Shown here: positions 9,154 through 13,869 of the stretch, one piece after another
How positions within the stretch are numbered: position 1 is the stretch's first letter
How the letters are laid out: each line of letters opens with the position of its first letter
NCBI RefSeq assembly: GCF_027859075.1
Contig: NZ_JAQIBL010000093.1
Span: 1 to 38,485, forward strand
Length of the DNA: 38,485 bases
From: Oceanispirochaeta sp.
Lineage (GTDB): Bacteria; Spirochaetota; Spirochaetia; DSM-2461
Direction: 5' to 3'
Notes under the pieces: model-generated
The model's input: the letters and a program-made list of their open reading frames with translations, nothing else
The model's database searches: none
What the model was told of the DNA's origin: nothing
Translations under genes and position numbers: made by a program

Positions 9154-10188
9154 TCAGTATTCTTCCTGGTCTTCCCGGTCCAGGAAGGATTGGTATTTTT
9201 TATATAAGCCCCTAAACTGATCATAGGTCAGCCCCAGGGCATGGGCGGCCTTTTTCTGGCTGAAACGGTTCTCTTCCAGAGCCCGGCGGATAAACCTTAA
9301 TTCCACCTCCAGGATATGATCTCTGTATTCAATCAGAGGTATTTCCTTTTCATCCGGGGTATCAGAGATTCCAGGTGCGTCTTCTTCTTCGTCCCTGTTC
9401 AGGGTCTGGTAGGGGTTGTTGAAGGGATTCAGATTCATCTCTTCAATCAAACCCCCTTCCGTCTTATAGACCGCCCTTTCCACTGCATTTTTCAACTCCC
9501 TGATATTCCCGGGCCAGGAATAATCCCTCATCTTCTCTATCAGCTTTGCAGAAAATTCGGGGATTTCGGGCTTTCCCATTTCCCGGGCCATTCTCATGGC
9601 AAAATGCCCCGCCAGCAGGGCGATATCGGTGCTGCGGTAGCGCAGGGGCGGAAGGTAGAGTACCTCAAAAGAGAGGCGGTCCAGAAGGTCTTTCTTGAAT
9701 TTCCCTTCCCGGCAGAGAGCAGGCAGATCGGCATTGGTTGCCCCGATGATTCTGACATCAACCTCCAGCTCTGTAGAACTCCCCACCCGGCTGAATCGGC
9801 CGTATTCCACTGTCCGGAGGATCTTTTCCTGGACCTCTATGGGGACAAGACCAATTTCATCGAGAAAGAGAGTTCCCCCATGGGCCTCTTCAAATCGCCC
9901 TTTCCGCATCTTTCCTGCTCCGGTAAAGGAGCCTGATTCATGACCGAAGAGTTCCGACTCTATGAGAGACGGGGGAAGGGCGGCGCAGTTGACGGGGATA
10001 TAGGGATACTTCCAGCGGCTGGAGAGGAAATGCAGACGCGAGGCTGCCAGCTCCTTCCCGGTGCCTCTCTCTCCCACAAGGAGAACCGGTCTGTCCACCC
10101 GGGCGGCAAGGCTTAGATTTTGCTGAAAGTCCATGAATTCTGCCGATTCCCCCAGGGCATCGGCAGAAGGATTGGTTTCAATGCTCAT
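9154..10188 (-). CDS. pspF: PspF-like sigma-54 enhancer-binding activator
   Basis: The 344-residue protein is a AAA+ activator with no N-terminal sensory domain, as in PspF. It has Walker A GERGTGKE near residue 38, Walker B GGTLFLDEIG, the R-finger region and a C-terminal Fis-type helix-turn-helix (FSQKKAAHALGLTYDQF). The sigma-54-contacting loop reads GSFTGA instead of the common GAFTGA. The gene diverges from pspABC, whose promoter is of sigma-54 type, so it very likely activates that operon. In Escherichia coli PspA inhibits PspF directly. The ATG at 10188 is chosen over an upstream in-frame start because the family-like sequence begins there and a -10 hexamer ends exactly six bases before it; no ribosome binding site is present. 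Confidence 0.88.
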   Translation of the reverse strand: MSIETNPSADALGESAEFMDFQQNLSLAARVDRPVLLVGERGTGKELAASRLHFLSSRWKYPYIPVNCAALPPSLIESELFGHESGSFTGAGKMRKGRFEEAHGGTLFLDEIGLVPIEVQEKILRTVEYGRFSRVGSSTELEVDVRIIGATNADLPALCREGKFKKDLLDRLSFEVLYLPPLRYRSTDIALLAGHFAMRMAREMGKPEIPEFSAKLIEKMRDYSWPGNIRELKNAVERAVYKTEGGLIEEMNLNPFNNPYQTLNRDEEEDAPGISDTPDEKEIPLIEYRDHILEVELRFIRRALEENRFSQKKAAHALGLTYDQFRGLYKKYQSFLDREDQEEY

Positions 10189-10194
10189 TGGTCT

Positions 10195-10224
10195 ATTGTA
10201 CTGATAAATGGTTAAAAATACCAA
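10195..10224 (-). promoter_or_regulatory. Predicted leaderless promoter of pspF
   Basis: On the minus strand TTGGTA (10219-10224), an 18-base spacer and TACAAT (10195-10200) are followed by AGACCA and the ATG at 10188. The predicted +1 is the start codon. Confidence 0.45.
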
Positions 10225-10296
10225 TAAAAAATTCATTCCTTGAAAATAGGAGAGTGATAAGCCGCATAAGACCCTGTCTTTCGGTGAATGGGAAGT

Positions 10297-10311
10297 TGGC
10301 ACAAATATTGC
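10297..10311 (+). promoter_or_regulatory. Sigma-54 (-24/-12) promoter of pspABC
   Basis: TGGCAC-AAATA-TTGC matches the RpoN consensus, with exactly ten bases between the invariant GG and GC. Transcription would start near 10323, giving a leader of about 65 bases before pspA. The 108-bp gap to pspF has room for upstream activator sites, but I could not define them. Confidence 0.9.
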
Positions 10312-10390
10312 GATAGTATAAGTGAAACATTACTATTGTTTATCTTCCCTTTGGGAATCGAAGCCGGGAAGAGAGACACAGGAGGAAATG

Positions 10391-11068
10391 ATGAGTATTT
10401 TTTCTAGATTCAGAGATATTGTAAACTCTAACATCAATGACATTCTGGACAAAGTGGAGGATCCTGAAAAAATGATCCGTCTGATGATTCAGGAAATGGA
10501 AGATACCCTGGTGGAGCTGAAGTCATCCTGCGCCGGCAAAATGGCTTCCAGAGCCGAGATCAACAGGGAAAAGGATTATCTTGAAAAGACCCTGGAACGC
10601 TGGGATGGCAGAGCCCGTCTTGCCCTTGAAAAGAACAGGGAAGACCTGGCTCGGGAAGCTCTTCTGGAAAAGAAGAACAGCCAGAATCAGATTGATCTGA
10701 TGAACAAAGATCTGGAGCACTTTGCCAAGCTTATTGACGAGTGTAAATCCAATATTCTACAATTGGAACAGAAACTGGAAGAGGTTCGTCAGAAGAATAA
10801 AATTCTGATTCAGAGAGGCCGCCATGCCGCCGAAACAAAGCAGGCCCGAACGGTCATGAAACAGGCCGATGGAAGTCATGCCTTTCAAAGATTCAATGAG
10901 CTTGAAAAGAAGGTTGAAATGATGGAAGCGGAAGCTGAAATGTCCTCTTATGGATTATCCGGTGGTCAGAACAGCTCCATCGAACACGAATTTGATAAAC
11001 TGGAGTCAGAGACCGAGATTGACGAGGAGCTGGCTGCCTTGAAGAAGTCCATGAAGGGAAAAGAGTAG
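10391..11068 (+). CDS. pspA: Phage shock protein A
   Basis: PspA is a peripheral membrane coiled-coil protein of the ESCRT-III superfamily that protects the inner membrane and represses PspF. The 225-residue length matches the family. The N-terminus MSIFSRFRDIVNSNINDILD is the amphipathic helix typical of PspA. It is followed by EDPEKMIRLMIQEMEDTL and a long heptad-rich helical body. The start is placed at the second of two adjacent ATGs (10391), which is five bases after AGGAGG. A longer frame from 10322 begins about at the transcription start and is not expected to be translated. It is the first gene of a sigma-54-driven operon, with pspB 3 bp downstream. Confidence 0.95.
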   Translation: MSIFSRFRDIVNSNINDILDKVEDPEKMIRLMIQEMEDTLVELKSSCAGKMASRAEINREKDYLEKTLERWDGRARLALEKNREDLAREALLEKKNSQNQIDLMNKDLEHFAKLIDECKSNILQLEQKLEEVRQKNKILIQRGRHAAETKQARTVMKQADGSHAFQRFNELEKKVEMMEAEAEMSSYGLSGGQNSSIEHEFDKLESETEIDEELAALKKSMKGKE

Positions 11069-11071
11069 ATT

Positions 11072-11299
11072 ATGCAAGCAGTCTGGATCGTCGCTATCGC
11101 CGTGGGAATCCCGGTTTTAAGCGGTACAATTACCCGCATTACAAAACTATACTACGCAAACAGAGATAAAGAGCGGGAAATCAGCCGCGGCGCCGAATCA
11201 GAATCATTGGAAGATATTCAGGCTGGAATAAAAGAACTGAAGAGGAGGGTGGGGAATCTTGAAACCATCCTCCTGGATCAGGAAAATCGAACACAATAA
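11072..11299 (+). CDS. pspB: PspB-like membrane regulator
   Basis: A 75-residue protein with one N-terminal transmembrane segment (residues 3-20) and a charged C-terminal helix ending in RRVGNLETIL. This is the same layout and a similar C-terminal motif as PspB. In enterobacteria PspB acts with PspC to sense membrane stress and relieve PspA inhibition of PspF. It sits between pspA (3 bp upstream) and pspC, as in the classical operon. The assignment rests on position, size and topology more than on strong sequence identity. Confidence 0.75.
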   Translation: MQAVWIVAIAVGIPVLSGTITRITKLYYANRDKEREISRGAESESLEDIQAGIKELKRRVGNLETILLDQENRTQ

Positions 11300-11342
11300 C
11301 GCTTTTTTAAGAAGAGCGGTTTGAGTATAAGAGGAGATCGAA

Positions 11343-11714
11343 ATGATGGCTTATACAGCACAAAAACTGTACCGTTCCCGGAGAGGTAAAATCTTCGGTA
11401 TTTGTCAGGGAATTGCCGACTGGCGGGATCTGCCTGTGGAATACATCCGTATTTTTATGATTCTGGCCTTTCTGTTCACCGGATTCTTTCCGGTGGGAAT
11501 TCTATACTTTCTGGCAGCTCTGATTCTTCCTATGGAACCGGAAGGGTTCAAATCCGCCAGTTCCTTCAGGCAGGAGGAATTCAGCCGGAAAGACCAGTAT
11601 GAAAATGTCCGCCGTGAATATAGTGATTTGAAAGATCGTGTCAGGAATATGGAAGGCAGAGTCTTTGACAAGGAACGGGACTGGGACGAAAGGTTTAAGA
11701 AAGAGAAGAAATAA
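11343..11714 (+). CDS. pspC: PspC-domain membrane protein
   Basis: The N-terminal PspC domain (residues 5-65) is recognisable from KLYRSRRGKIFGICQGIADW, followed by a hydrophobic membrane segment (FMILAFLFTGFFPVGILYF) and the LPMEPEG border. A charged coiled-coil tail covers residues 85-123. PspC is the inner-membrane stress sensor partner of PspB. Start ATG 11343 follows GAGGAG by six bases. A 43-bp gap with a weak hairpin separates it from pspB. A strong terminator follows. Confidence 0.92.
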   Translation: MMAYTAQKLYRSRRGKIFGICQGIADWRDLPVEYIRIFMILAFLFTGFFPVGILYFLAALILPMEPEGFKSASSFRQEEFSRKDQYENVRREYSDLKDRVRNMEGRVFDKERDWDERFKKEKK

Positions 11715-11780: not shown

Positions 11781-12557
11781 TCAGCTTTTCAGGTATCCCA
11801 GATTATCGGAAATTTTCCCGGCCCCTTCTTTTACTTTCAAGGCCAGCTTTTTCATTTTTTCTTTTGTCATCCTCAATGACGGTCCAGAAATACTGAGGGC
11901 ACCACAGATGACTCCCTTGTTGTCAAAAATAGGGGCTGCAACGCAACGAACACCGGGTTCATTTTCCTCCAGGTCAAAGGCCCATCCATTTTTTCTGATC
12001 TCAATCAGTCTTACTTCCAGTTCTTCAGGAGTGGTGACAGAATATTCTGTTCGAGCTGTCCAGTCGGCGTGTTCCAGCATGCGCTCTTTTTCATCATGGC
12101 CCATATTTGCCAGGATCACTTTCCCAACACCCGTGCAGACTACCGGAGCAAATCGCCCTTGAGCAGAACCCATGGCTACCCTGAGTGCCAGGGGGGATTC
12201 TATTTTATCAAGATAGAATACCTGATGGTTTTCCATGGAAGCAAGGTGTATTGTCTCCTTCGAGTATTCGGCCAGTTCTTCCATGACAGGAAGTGAAGCC
12301 TTGTGGATATCCAGGCGGTTCAGTGCTTGTACACCAACCTGGAAAAGCTTCAGTGTGAGTGAATATTTCTCATTGTTTCTGTTCTGGCTGACATAACCGA
12401 GACCAGAGAGTGTATTCAGGAATCGGTAGACCGTACTCTTATTCCCGTCCACTGCGGCGGCCAGTTCGGTCACACCCACCTCTTCCTGGGCAGAGAGGGT
12501 TTCCAGCAACTTCATCGTTTTTAATACGGATAATACAGGCTCGGCGGTTTTCATCAT
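11781..12557 (-). CDS. IclR-family transcriptional regulator
   Basis: The 258-residue protein has an N-terminal winged helix-turn-helix (VGVTELAAAVDGNKSTVYRFLNT would be the recognition region, roughly residues 27-50). It also has a C-terminal IclR effector domain (GVGKVILA, RCVAAPIFDNKG, ALSISGPS). Such proteins respond to small organic acids or sugar-acid metabolites. No catabolic genes adjoin it, so the effector and targets are unknown. The start is the first of two adjacent ATGs (12557), six bases after TAAAAT and without a ribosome binding site, hence predicted leaderless. An imperfect palindrome upstream may be its own operator. Confidence 0.92.
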   Translation of the reverse strand: MMKTAEPVLSVLKTMKLLETLSAQEEVGVTELAAAVDGNKSTVYRFLNTLSGLGYVSQNRNNEKYSLTLKLFQVGVQALNRLDIHKASLPVMEELAEYSKETIHLASMENHQVFYLDKIESPLALRVAMGSAQGRFAPVVCTGVGKVILANMGHDEKERMLEHADWTARTEYSVTTPEELEVRLIEIRKNGWAFDLEENEPGVRCVAAPIFDNKGVICGALSISGPSLRMTKEKMKKLALKVKEGAGKISDNLGYLKS

Positions 12558-12563
12558 AAGGGT

Positions 12564-12592
12564 ATTTTACATTGATGCTTTCCCGTTTGTAT
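12564..12592 (-). promoter_or_regulatory. Predicted leaderless promoter of the iclR-type gene
   Basis: On the minus strand TAAAAT (12564-12569) is followed by ACCCTT and the ATG at 12557. Seventeen bases upstream lies ATACAA, a weak -35. Confidence 0.4.
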
Positions 12593-12599
12593 ATATTAA

Positions 12600-12626
12600 T
12601 TGAAATAGAATAAAACTTTGTTTCAA
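12600..12626. promoter_or_regulatory. Candidate IclR-family operator
   Basis: TTGAAA (12600-12605) and TTTCAA (12621-12626) form the ends of an imperfect 27-bp palindrome that also matches at inner A positions. Its centre lies about 56 bp upstream of the predicted iclR start. IclR-family operators are often TGAAA/TTTCA-type palindromes. Confidence 0.35.
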
Positions 12627-12664
12627 AAAGGCGTCCCTTCTCTATTCAATGAAGGGACGCCTTT
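12627..12664 (-). terminator. Strong terminator of the small-ORF operon (possibly bidirectional)
   Basis: A perfect 14-bp stem (12627-12640 with 12651-12664, ten-base loop) is followed on the minus strand by GCCTTTTTG. It begins five bases beyond the stop of the 56-residue minus-strand ORF. A T-rich stretch on the other side allows weaker plus-strand use. Confidence 0.85.
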
Positions 12665-12668
12665 ATTC

Positions 12669-12839
12669 TTATTTATTGATATTTCTGAAGGTCAGAAGCA
12701 TAAGCAATCTGTAAAAGTGCTTCTTGATTTCCTTTCCAGTTCTACAGGCCTTCAGTTTCCGGCTTATTTCCATATTCTTTTCCATTTCAAGCCGGCCTTC
12801 GTGGAACAGTATTTCAAAGTCGTGAAGATTTTCGTACAT
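12669..12839 (-). CDS. Small unknown protein, 56 residues
   Basis: The minus-strand ATG at 12839 has GGGAG seven bases upstream and an open frame of 56 codons ending just before a strong terminator. The protein starts MYENLHDFEILFHEGRLE and is amphipathic, very charged (many Lys/Glu/Arg) and helical in appearance. A hydrophobic stretch HFYRLLMLLTF near the end is followed by a polar tail. I do not recognise a family. It lies 79 bp downstream of a 42-residue ORF on the same strand; the two probably share one transcript. Ribosome binding site, codon use and terminator support translation; function is unknown. Confidence 0.6.
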   Translation of the reverse strand: MYENLHDFEILFHEGRLEMEKNMEISRKLKACRTGKEIKKHFYRLLMLLTFRNINK

Positions 12840-12918
12840 TCTCTTTCTCCCTGACAGATTCCCGGTAGAATCTTGTCATATTACTCAGGGTTAGAAATTG
12901 AAAGCAGGGGTTCACCGT

Positions 12919-13047
12919 TTAGATTCTTTCATTCACCGGCTCCCTACTTTGTCCATTTTCTTTTATGCAGATCTGTCGCCCTTCGGCGGGTGCAGTATCC
13001 ATCAGATAGCTAGCTGATGTGTTCATTTCTCTCATTTCAATATTCAT
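12919..13047 (-). CDS. Small unknown protein, 42 residues
   Basis: The minus-strand ATG at 13047 follows a perfect AGGAGG(T) by seven bases, one of the best ribosome binding sites in the window. The 42-residue product begins MNIEMREMNTSASYLMD and is polar, with one cysteine (RQICIKENG) and no membrane segment. Longer in-frame reading upstream runs through a terminator and is not credible. No family is recognised. It appears to be the first gene of a two-gene minus-strand unit closed by the hairpin at 12627-12664. Confidence 0.5.
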   Translation of the reverse strand: MNIEMREMNTSASYLMDTAPAEGRQICIKENGQSREPVNERI

Positions 13048-13114
13048 TAATTTACCTCCTGTTATTATGTCTGATTCAAGGACAATTCGCCTTTTCCCTA
13101 GAATCACACAGGTC

Positions 13115-13147
13115 AAAAAAAACCCCCCGGAATGGTTCCGGGGGGTT
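13115..13147 (-). terminator. Strong rho-independent terminator, minus strand
   Basis: A 12-bp GC-rich stem (13121-13132 with 13136-13147, three-base loop) is followed on the minus strand by eight T residues. It ends the transcript carrying the 31-residue ORF and insulates the next small ORF. Confidence 0.9.
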
Positions 13148-13163
13148 GTTACTTCATGATTCT

Positions 13164-13259
13164 TTAAAACCAAAGTTGGAATTCCCGGAAATAGTACAAA
13201 TAAATAGTGACAGTAAATTTTCTGTCAGAAGCTGATAAACAGGGTCGGTATGTTGTCAT
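13164..13259 (-). CDS. Possible 31-residue peptide
   Basis: The minus-strand ATG at 13259 is preceded by GGAGGAAGGAAAT and encodes 31 residues, MTTYRPCLSASDRKF followed by an aromatic, hydrophobic tail (TIYLYYF, QLWF). The stop lies 16 bp before a strong minus-strand terminator, so a short dedicated transcript is likely. An in-frame ATG five codons earlier lacks a ribosome binding site. It could be a small membrane-active peptide, a leader peptide or an untranslated regulatory RNA. Function unknown. Confidence 0.35.
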   Translation of the reverse strand: MTTYRPCLSASDRKFTVTIYLYYFREFQLWF

Positions 13260-13419
13260 ATTTCCTTCCTCCATGGTTGGTTTTTAATAGTTTTATCATA
13301 GTGATGCATAATGAACAAGTGTTTTCTGCAAAAAAGTGAATTTATGCTTGCGTCTAACGGGATGACCCCCTGCTGATCTCTTCGAATGGACAGGAAGCTG
13401 TTCACTCCACTTGATCCAA

Positions 13420-13869
13420 ATGAGTTCTATGGATAACCTTGACTCTATCATGAATCGTACAGATCTGATCACACTTATACAGAAGAAGGGGCAATTCTCA
13501 TTTTCCCGTTCCGGAGGTCCCGGGGGGCAGAATGTCAACAAGGTCAATACAAAGGTCCTTTTGACTGTTGCTCTGGATGAATTGGCGGGATTGGATGAAT
13601 CTGAGCTATTGATGATCAGGGAAAAACTCAGCTCCCGGTTGAACAGCAGCGGGGAACTCTTTATTCAGCTCCAGGAGGAACGTTCCCAGTTGATGAACAG
13701 GGAACGAGCCGTAGAAAAAATGGCTGATCTTATCCTGGAATCGCTGATAGTACAAAAAAAAAGAAGAAAAACAAGGCCTTCGAGAGGGGCCAGGCAGAAG
13801 AGGCTGGATGGAAAGAAGATACAGGGGAACAAGAAAAAAAACAGGGGCAGCATCTCAATTGATGATTGA
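13420..13869 (+). CDS. arfB: Ribosome-rescue peptidyl-tRNA hydrolase ArfB (YaeJ)
   Basis: ArfB hydrolyses peptidyl-tRNA on ribosomes stalled at mRNA ends. The GGQ catalytic loop appears as SGGPGGQNVNKVNTKV near residue 31. The C-terminus is a long basic tail (KKRRKTRPSRGARQKR) that in this family inserts into the empty mRNA channel. The length of 149 residues is typical. The start is uncertain: ATGs occur at 13420, 13429 and 13450, and none has a good ribosome binding site or a well-placed -10. The last few codons lie inside the terminator hairpin. Confidence 0.9.
   Translation: MSSMDNLDSIMNRTDLITLIQKKGQFSFSRSGGPGGQNVNKVNTKVLLTVALDELAGLDESELLMIREKLSSRLNSSGELFIQLQEERSQLMNRERAVEKMADLILESLIVQKKRRKTRPSRGARQKRLDGKKIQGNKKKNRGSISIDD

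Follow-up and report, generated by a model that had tools for sequence, protein, structure and literature searches.

A small island on the minus strand of an Oceanispirochaeta contig, with arfB (RF-1 domain) on one side and iclR on the other, rather probably forms one regulated unit in which a leader peptide of 31 codons (p31), a transcription attenuator and a structured 5′ region are combined with a gene of 56 codons (p56). The stretch analysed (38,485 nucleotides, referred to here as the window) belongs to a contig that is part of a 4.36-Mb draft spirochaete genome. On the minus strand, p31 occupies 13259..13164 with its ATG at 13259 (MTTYRPCLSASDRKFTVTIYLYYFREFQLWF), an ORF of 42 codons occupies 13047..12919, and p56 occupies 12839..12669 (MYENLHDFEILFHEGRLEMEKNMEISRKLKACRTGKEIKKHFYRLLMLLTFRNINK). 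ORFs of 31, 42 and 56 codons had been reported here in a first-pass annotation, each with a ribosome binding site; all of them are indeed present, each has a Shine-Dalgarno-like site, and that of the 42-codon ORF is a perfect AGGAGGT. ORFs of such sizes are common by chance, and positions 12300-13500 are overlapped by 23 ORFs of at least 20 amino acids; it is because of their conservation in relatives that p31 and p56 rise above chance.

For this comparison, six genomes of the genus were used (G000-G005), in which the loci L013, L014, L015 and L016 correspond to G003, G004, G001 and G002, respectively. The island, which is about 700 nt long, is present in four of the six (G000, G001, G003 and G004); it is absent from G002 and G005, where the spacing from arfB to iclR is about 160-210 nt. 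Going from arfB to iclR, the order of p31 and p56 is kept in three further species of the genus, and tblastn matched p56 in L013, L014 and L015 with E values of 1e-8 to 8e-5. In the four species, p31 has 31, 31, 34 and 31 codons and p56 has 56, 57, 56 and 57, the pairwise identity of p56 being 27-70%, and the length differences of both are whole codons throughout. In a coding test with shuffled alignment columns, differing codons were found to encode more similar residues than expected, both for p31 (p=0.0075) and for p56 (p=0.0015). This test was used because the dN/dS of p56 (0.33-0.71; G003-G004 0.19/0.32) is not a clean measure, since the synonymous sites of p56 are unusually conserved: between G003 and G004 its pS is 0.26, as compared to 0.75-0.79 in iclR/arfB, and in these flanking genes synonymous sites are saturated among the species (pS 0.62-0.86). 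As far as sequence comparison goes, it is well supported that p31 and p56 are real genes, and that the B:C switch described below is present.

The situation is different for the 42-codon ORF, for which tblastn found no counterpart in relatives. An ORF at a similar place in G003 and G004 has a pN higher than its pS, and its third positions change least; the 42-codon ORF thus lacks support as a gene. It is probably not a conserved gene and at most a second translated leader. Conservation of the reading frames in relatives, which the first-pass annotation had proposed as a check, was thus found for p31 and p56, but not for this ORF. The suggestion of a small-protein module holds for p56; the 42-codon ORF has the best Shine-Dalgarno sequence and the least support. 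In G001, G003 and G004, a further ribosome site, also strong (GGAGGRGGAATATGA), leads into a very short ORF, which overlaps a longer one and encodes MNAIF, MNAIY or MTNDYTKN. Counted from arfB, its offset in the islands of G003 (L013) and G004 (L014) is about 437-550, and there is an equivalent in G001 (L015); it may be a second translated leader.

The distribution of the island within the genus can be compared with a tree of IclR and ArfB, in which the islandless G002 is the sister of the island-bearing G000 (bootstrap 99 for DNA and 92 for protein) and G005, which is without the island, is the outgroup. The gap between arfB and iclR in G002 (L016) carries a T-rich sequence, CTTTTTTTAAAACA, exactly where terminator 2 (see below) ends. 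Because the sister G000 carries the island and this T-rich, terminator-2-like remnant is left in G002, loss by deletion in G002 is probably the simplest account. A small accessory gene under such tight control would be in keeping with a conditional role or with a toxin-like element.

The search for p56 was extended beyond the genus. In about 395 genomes of the class, there were weak, stop-containing or partial matches only, none of which holds up, and no match outside the genus holds up in 85,000 GTDB species genomes. The wider genome contigs gave L027 alone, with none holding up beyond the genus, and the viral contigs gave none. So far, p56 thus appears confined to one spirochaete genus. It is also without a match in Pfam, NCBIfam, PHROGs and PADLOC. 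AlphaFold2 predicts a single helix from residue 2 to 55 (pLDDT 84.7), for which no fold match was found. Ubiquitin, suggested as a relative by PDB profile matches, was rejected, as these are composition artefacts in which no stretch passes. At its C-terminus, p56 has a short hydrophobic patch that ends in F-R-N, with a hydrophobic stretch of about 8-12 residues, which suggests that the patch may bind the membrane surface or a partner.

With respect to transcription, the predicted island promoter (13290..13318, minus strand) reads TTGTTC-17 nt-TAAAAC with an extended -10 (TG), and in the four species it consists of TTGTTC or TTGTAT, a spacing of 17 nt and a TG-extended TAANAN, 59-62 nt ahead of the start of p31. 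Terminator 1, the putative attenuator, is a 12-bp stem followed by U8 (stem 13147-13121, minus strand), and the stem is perfect in all four species. Terminator 2 (12625..12664, minus strand), at the end of the unit, was read from the sequence, where the self-complementarity of its 14-bp stem can be seen, because a simple scan misses it on account of its loop; relatives have perfect stems at the same place whose sequences are unrelated. The iclR promoter (12564..12593, minus strand; TATACA-18-TAAAAT) belongs to a separate unit, and its position is conserved in the four species. The two terminators of the first-pass annotation are therefore confirmed (12-bp stem plus U8 at 13147-13121, 14-bp stem at about 12664-12627), but not the independence of the two short transcripts that it had proposed: from terminator 1 to p56, no promoter is conserved in the four species, and those of p31 and iclR, recovered in all four, are the only conserved ones on this strand. 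Since no conserved promoter precedes p56, we propose that there is one minus-strand transcription unit with an internal attenuator, which would start at ~13285 and end at terminator 2.

The iclR side of the island has features of its own. Around the iclR promoter, TGAAACA-type repeats spaced at ~20 bp are conserved (12585-12625, minus strand, and also in L013, L014 and L015), and they likely constitute a putative autoregulatory IclR operator. Furthermore, a phage-shock-like cluster adjoins (9154-11714), with a sigma-54 activator (PspF-like, minus strand), PspA/IM30 (plus strand) and PspC (plus strand), then iclR and the island; a PspC-like gene lies beside iclR in G003 and G004, too.

The leader contains four segments, which by their pairing could constitute the switch. 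On the minus strand, segment A (region 1, 13259..13265) is GGAAATA, the end of the Shine-Dalgarno sequence and start of p31; segment B (region 2, 13184..13193) is TATTTCCGGG, corresponding to the p31 codons Y-F-R-G/E; segment C (region 3, 13136..13147) is the 5′ arm of terminator 1, AACCCCCCGGAA; and segment D (region 4, 13113..13132) is its 3′ arm with the U8 tail. Segment A is predicted to pair with B in consensus and single folds, B with A or C, and C with B (antiterminator) or D (terminator). In all four species, segment B is TAT TTC CGG G, in frame, letter-identical and near the 3′ end of p31; the frequencies of its codons TAT, TTC and CGG in the window are 0.52, 0.40 and 0.24. It is complementary to C (CCCCGGA...; CCCGGA), and its first half is complementary to A (GGAAATA), such that A:B, B:C and C:D are three mutually exclusive helices. 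The B:C antiterminator helix has 7-12 bp in the four species and excludes the terminator helix, though in the window it has only 7 bp as compared to the 12 bp of terminator 1.

Several comparisons bear on whether these pairings exceed chance. Against leaders with shuffled codons, B:C comes out stronger in each species (p 0.034, 0.0005, 0.008 and 0.009), whereas the A:B duplexes, which have 7-15 bp, are weak on their own when compared to shuffles (p 0.07-0.20). When the transcript is folded up to the terminator loop, B:C is predicted in G000, G003 and G004, and mainly A:B in G001; with the full transcript, the terminator forms in four of four species. In a swap test between species, the matched pairings ranked 2nd of 24 permutations for A:B and B:C alike (n=4, with invariant cores), and the covariation support for both helices is modest, as the invariance of A:B and of the B cores among four sequences leaves little covariation to be seen. 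Each of the four island genomes has the ordered pattern of A, B and C a single time, against 0/391 other genomes of the class, and the ordered pattern of B, C and D was found in 4/26, only at the four loci. Matches of the pattern GGAGGAAGGAAATATGAC elsewhere were discarded: some were the usual ribosome sites of unrelated genes, others lay within unrelated genes. Rfam gave no match above the gathering score (His_leader 29 bits with 49 needed, Phe_leader 26.8 with 55 needed), and there was no consistent site for a pairing of the leader RNA in trans with the p56 start.

In the trp and his attenuators, the state of leader translation decides whether the terminator or the antiterminator is formed. 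By analogy, we infer that the ribosome would act as the sensor at this locus. Without translation of p31, A would pair with B and the C:D terminator would form (OFF). With fast translation, the ribosome would be found at the p31 stop, on or beside B, and C:D would again form (OFF). A ribosome that stalls or is slow in p31 before reaching B would prevent A:B, B would take C, and the terminator would be blocked (ON); read-through would then extend to p56. The suggestion of regulatory RNAs with short ORFs, made from the sequence at first sight, is in keeping with this reading for the 31-codon ORF.

As to the signal, codon 20 of p31 is TAT (Tyr) in each of the four species, and a further Tyr follows at position 22 or 23, which suggests that a shortage of Tyr-tRNA, i.e., the supply of tyrosine, is what the leader senses. 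The distance from Tyr-20 to B is 9, 15, 15 and 27 nt in the four species, which is too close in G000: in the window, codons 20 and 22 are 9 and 3 nt before B, such that a ribosome stalled on them would mask B. Also, because the p31 stop in the window is 7 codons past CGG, B would be covered only partly at termination. It is equally possible that the leader senses a general slowdown of translation rather than tyrosine.

A further level of control may lie in the p56 mRNA itself, where a 5′ hairpin is predicted over the p56 Shine-Dalgarno sequence (12843..12893, minus strand; in the window, AACCCTGA pairs with TCAGGGAG). The GGG of this ribosome site is paired with a probability of at least 0.98 in four of four species, via different helices, and the z scores of the folds are -1.4 to -2.4. 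With its ribosome site buried, p56 would be made only when needed, and in these models it seems to be locked twice, at transcription and at translation. Between G003 and G004, conservation is highest in the p56 start region (88-100% per 40-nt block). Codons 1-16 (12800-12839, minus strand) are letter-identical in the two despite saturated neighbour genes; NAY codons (Tyr, Asn, Asp and His) are frequent among them, and weak promoter-like sites on the antisense strand overlap this stretch.

Could the same observations be explained by two separate genes? In this case, p31 would be a micro-gene or a small RNA that ends at an ordinary terminator, p56 would have a promoter of its own, and the match between B and C would have arisen incidentally from codon choice and common descent. 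The great strength of terminator 1 (-22.3 kcal/mol and 12 bp in the window) favours this explanation, given that on average final terminators are stronger than those of attenuators (PMC2965389). The A:B helix, which alone is not significant, points the same way, as does a promoter-like site that G004 carries 178 nt ahead of p56. However, such an incidental origin sits badly with a segment B whose synonymous positions do not vary among four species in spite of saturated flanks, with a B:C helix above the shuffles in each of them, and with the lack of a conserved promoter before p56, such that we regard two independent genes as unlikely.

We consider it more doubtful still that p56 is a type I toxin whose mRNA is locked by its structure and by an antisense RNA arising from within the p56 start region. 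Antisense promoter-like sites are present at +28/+29 from the p56 start, with one at +48 also in G003 and G004, but they are weak, about as many are expected by chance, and the -10 sequence TACATT is just what the start codon region reads on the opposite strand. The size of p56 and its hydrophobic C-terminus would suit a toxin, yet its hydrophobic stretch is short for a membrane-spanning helix. The Shine-Dalgarno sequence predicted to be buried in all four species, the 95-100% identity of the start region in G003 and G004 amid saturated flanking genes and the probable loss of the island in G002 would suit such an element as well, but p56 is single-copy and none of the four family collections gave a toxin match. 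A toxin role and the attenuator could be true together. That all these ORFs are functionless and occur by chance in a noncoding spacer is very improbable. The region is rich in ORFs of this size and the 42-codon ORF is not conserved, but the conserved frames of p31 and p56, their strictly in-frame length changes, the coding tests and the conserved terminators contradict chance for these two, leaving it, as judged from the comparison, for the 42-codon ORF only.

Returning to the attenuator, its layout resembles that of the trpL, hisL and pheA/pheST leaders in having a short ORF in the leader behind a good ribosome site and, as predicted, overlapping 1:2, 2:3 and 3:4 helices. As in the attenuators of amino-acid operons, the last helix is an intrinsic terminator, and codons for one amino acid (here Tyr) precede the switch segment. 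Unlike in these systems, the gene controlled would be an orphan of 56 codons instead of one for biosynthesis or for a tRNA synthetase; the Shine-Dalgarno sequence and start of the leader itself, rather than the stretch of control codons, make up region 1; and there are 3-4 Tyr codons that do not form a run. Leaders that sense antibiotics or slow translation, such as the tylosin-responsive attenuator of B. subtilis yxjB (PMC6851288), are a second point of comparison. In leaders of the ermC and yxjB type, leader translation steers the downstream gene via alternative RNA structures, as proposed here, and ermC also has a buried Shine-Dalgarno sequence ahead of the regulated ORF; however, no resistance gene is found downstream of p31, and no known arrest motif was recognised in it. 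With tisB/istR-1 (PMC4147584, PMC11264685), the locus shares a protein of less than 60 residues with a hydrophobic segment, a structured 5′ region that would inhibit translation, and another short ORF ahead. It differs in that the antisense RNA is a candidate only, that the hydrophobic segment is short, that a transcription attenuator takes the place of SOS control, and that there is no sequence relation.

Leader-peptide attenuators have long been known mainly from Proteobacteria and Actinobacteria (PMC2965389). We tentatively put forward, as a possibility to which we give rather less than even weight, that free-living spirochaetes have in this island a leader attenuator whose first switch strand is the start site of the leader itself, and which controls an orphan single-helix protein; in this way, a stress or toxin-like effector located next to arfB and the psp genes would respond to the state of translation. 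The comparison of four genomes separates conserved leader ORFs from chance ORFs. If the attenuator is real, switches of this kind would be seen to guard tiny effector genes as well, and slowing translation or starving for tyrosine would provide a direct handle by which p56 may be switched on and its role be found.
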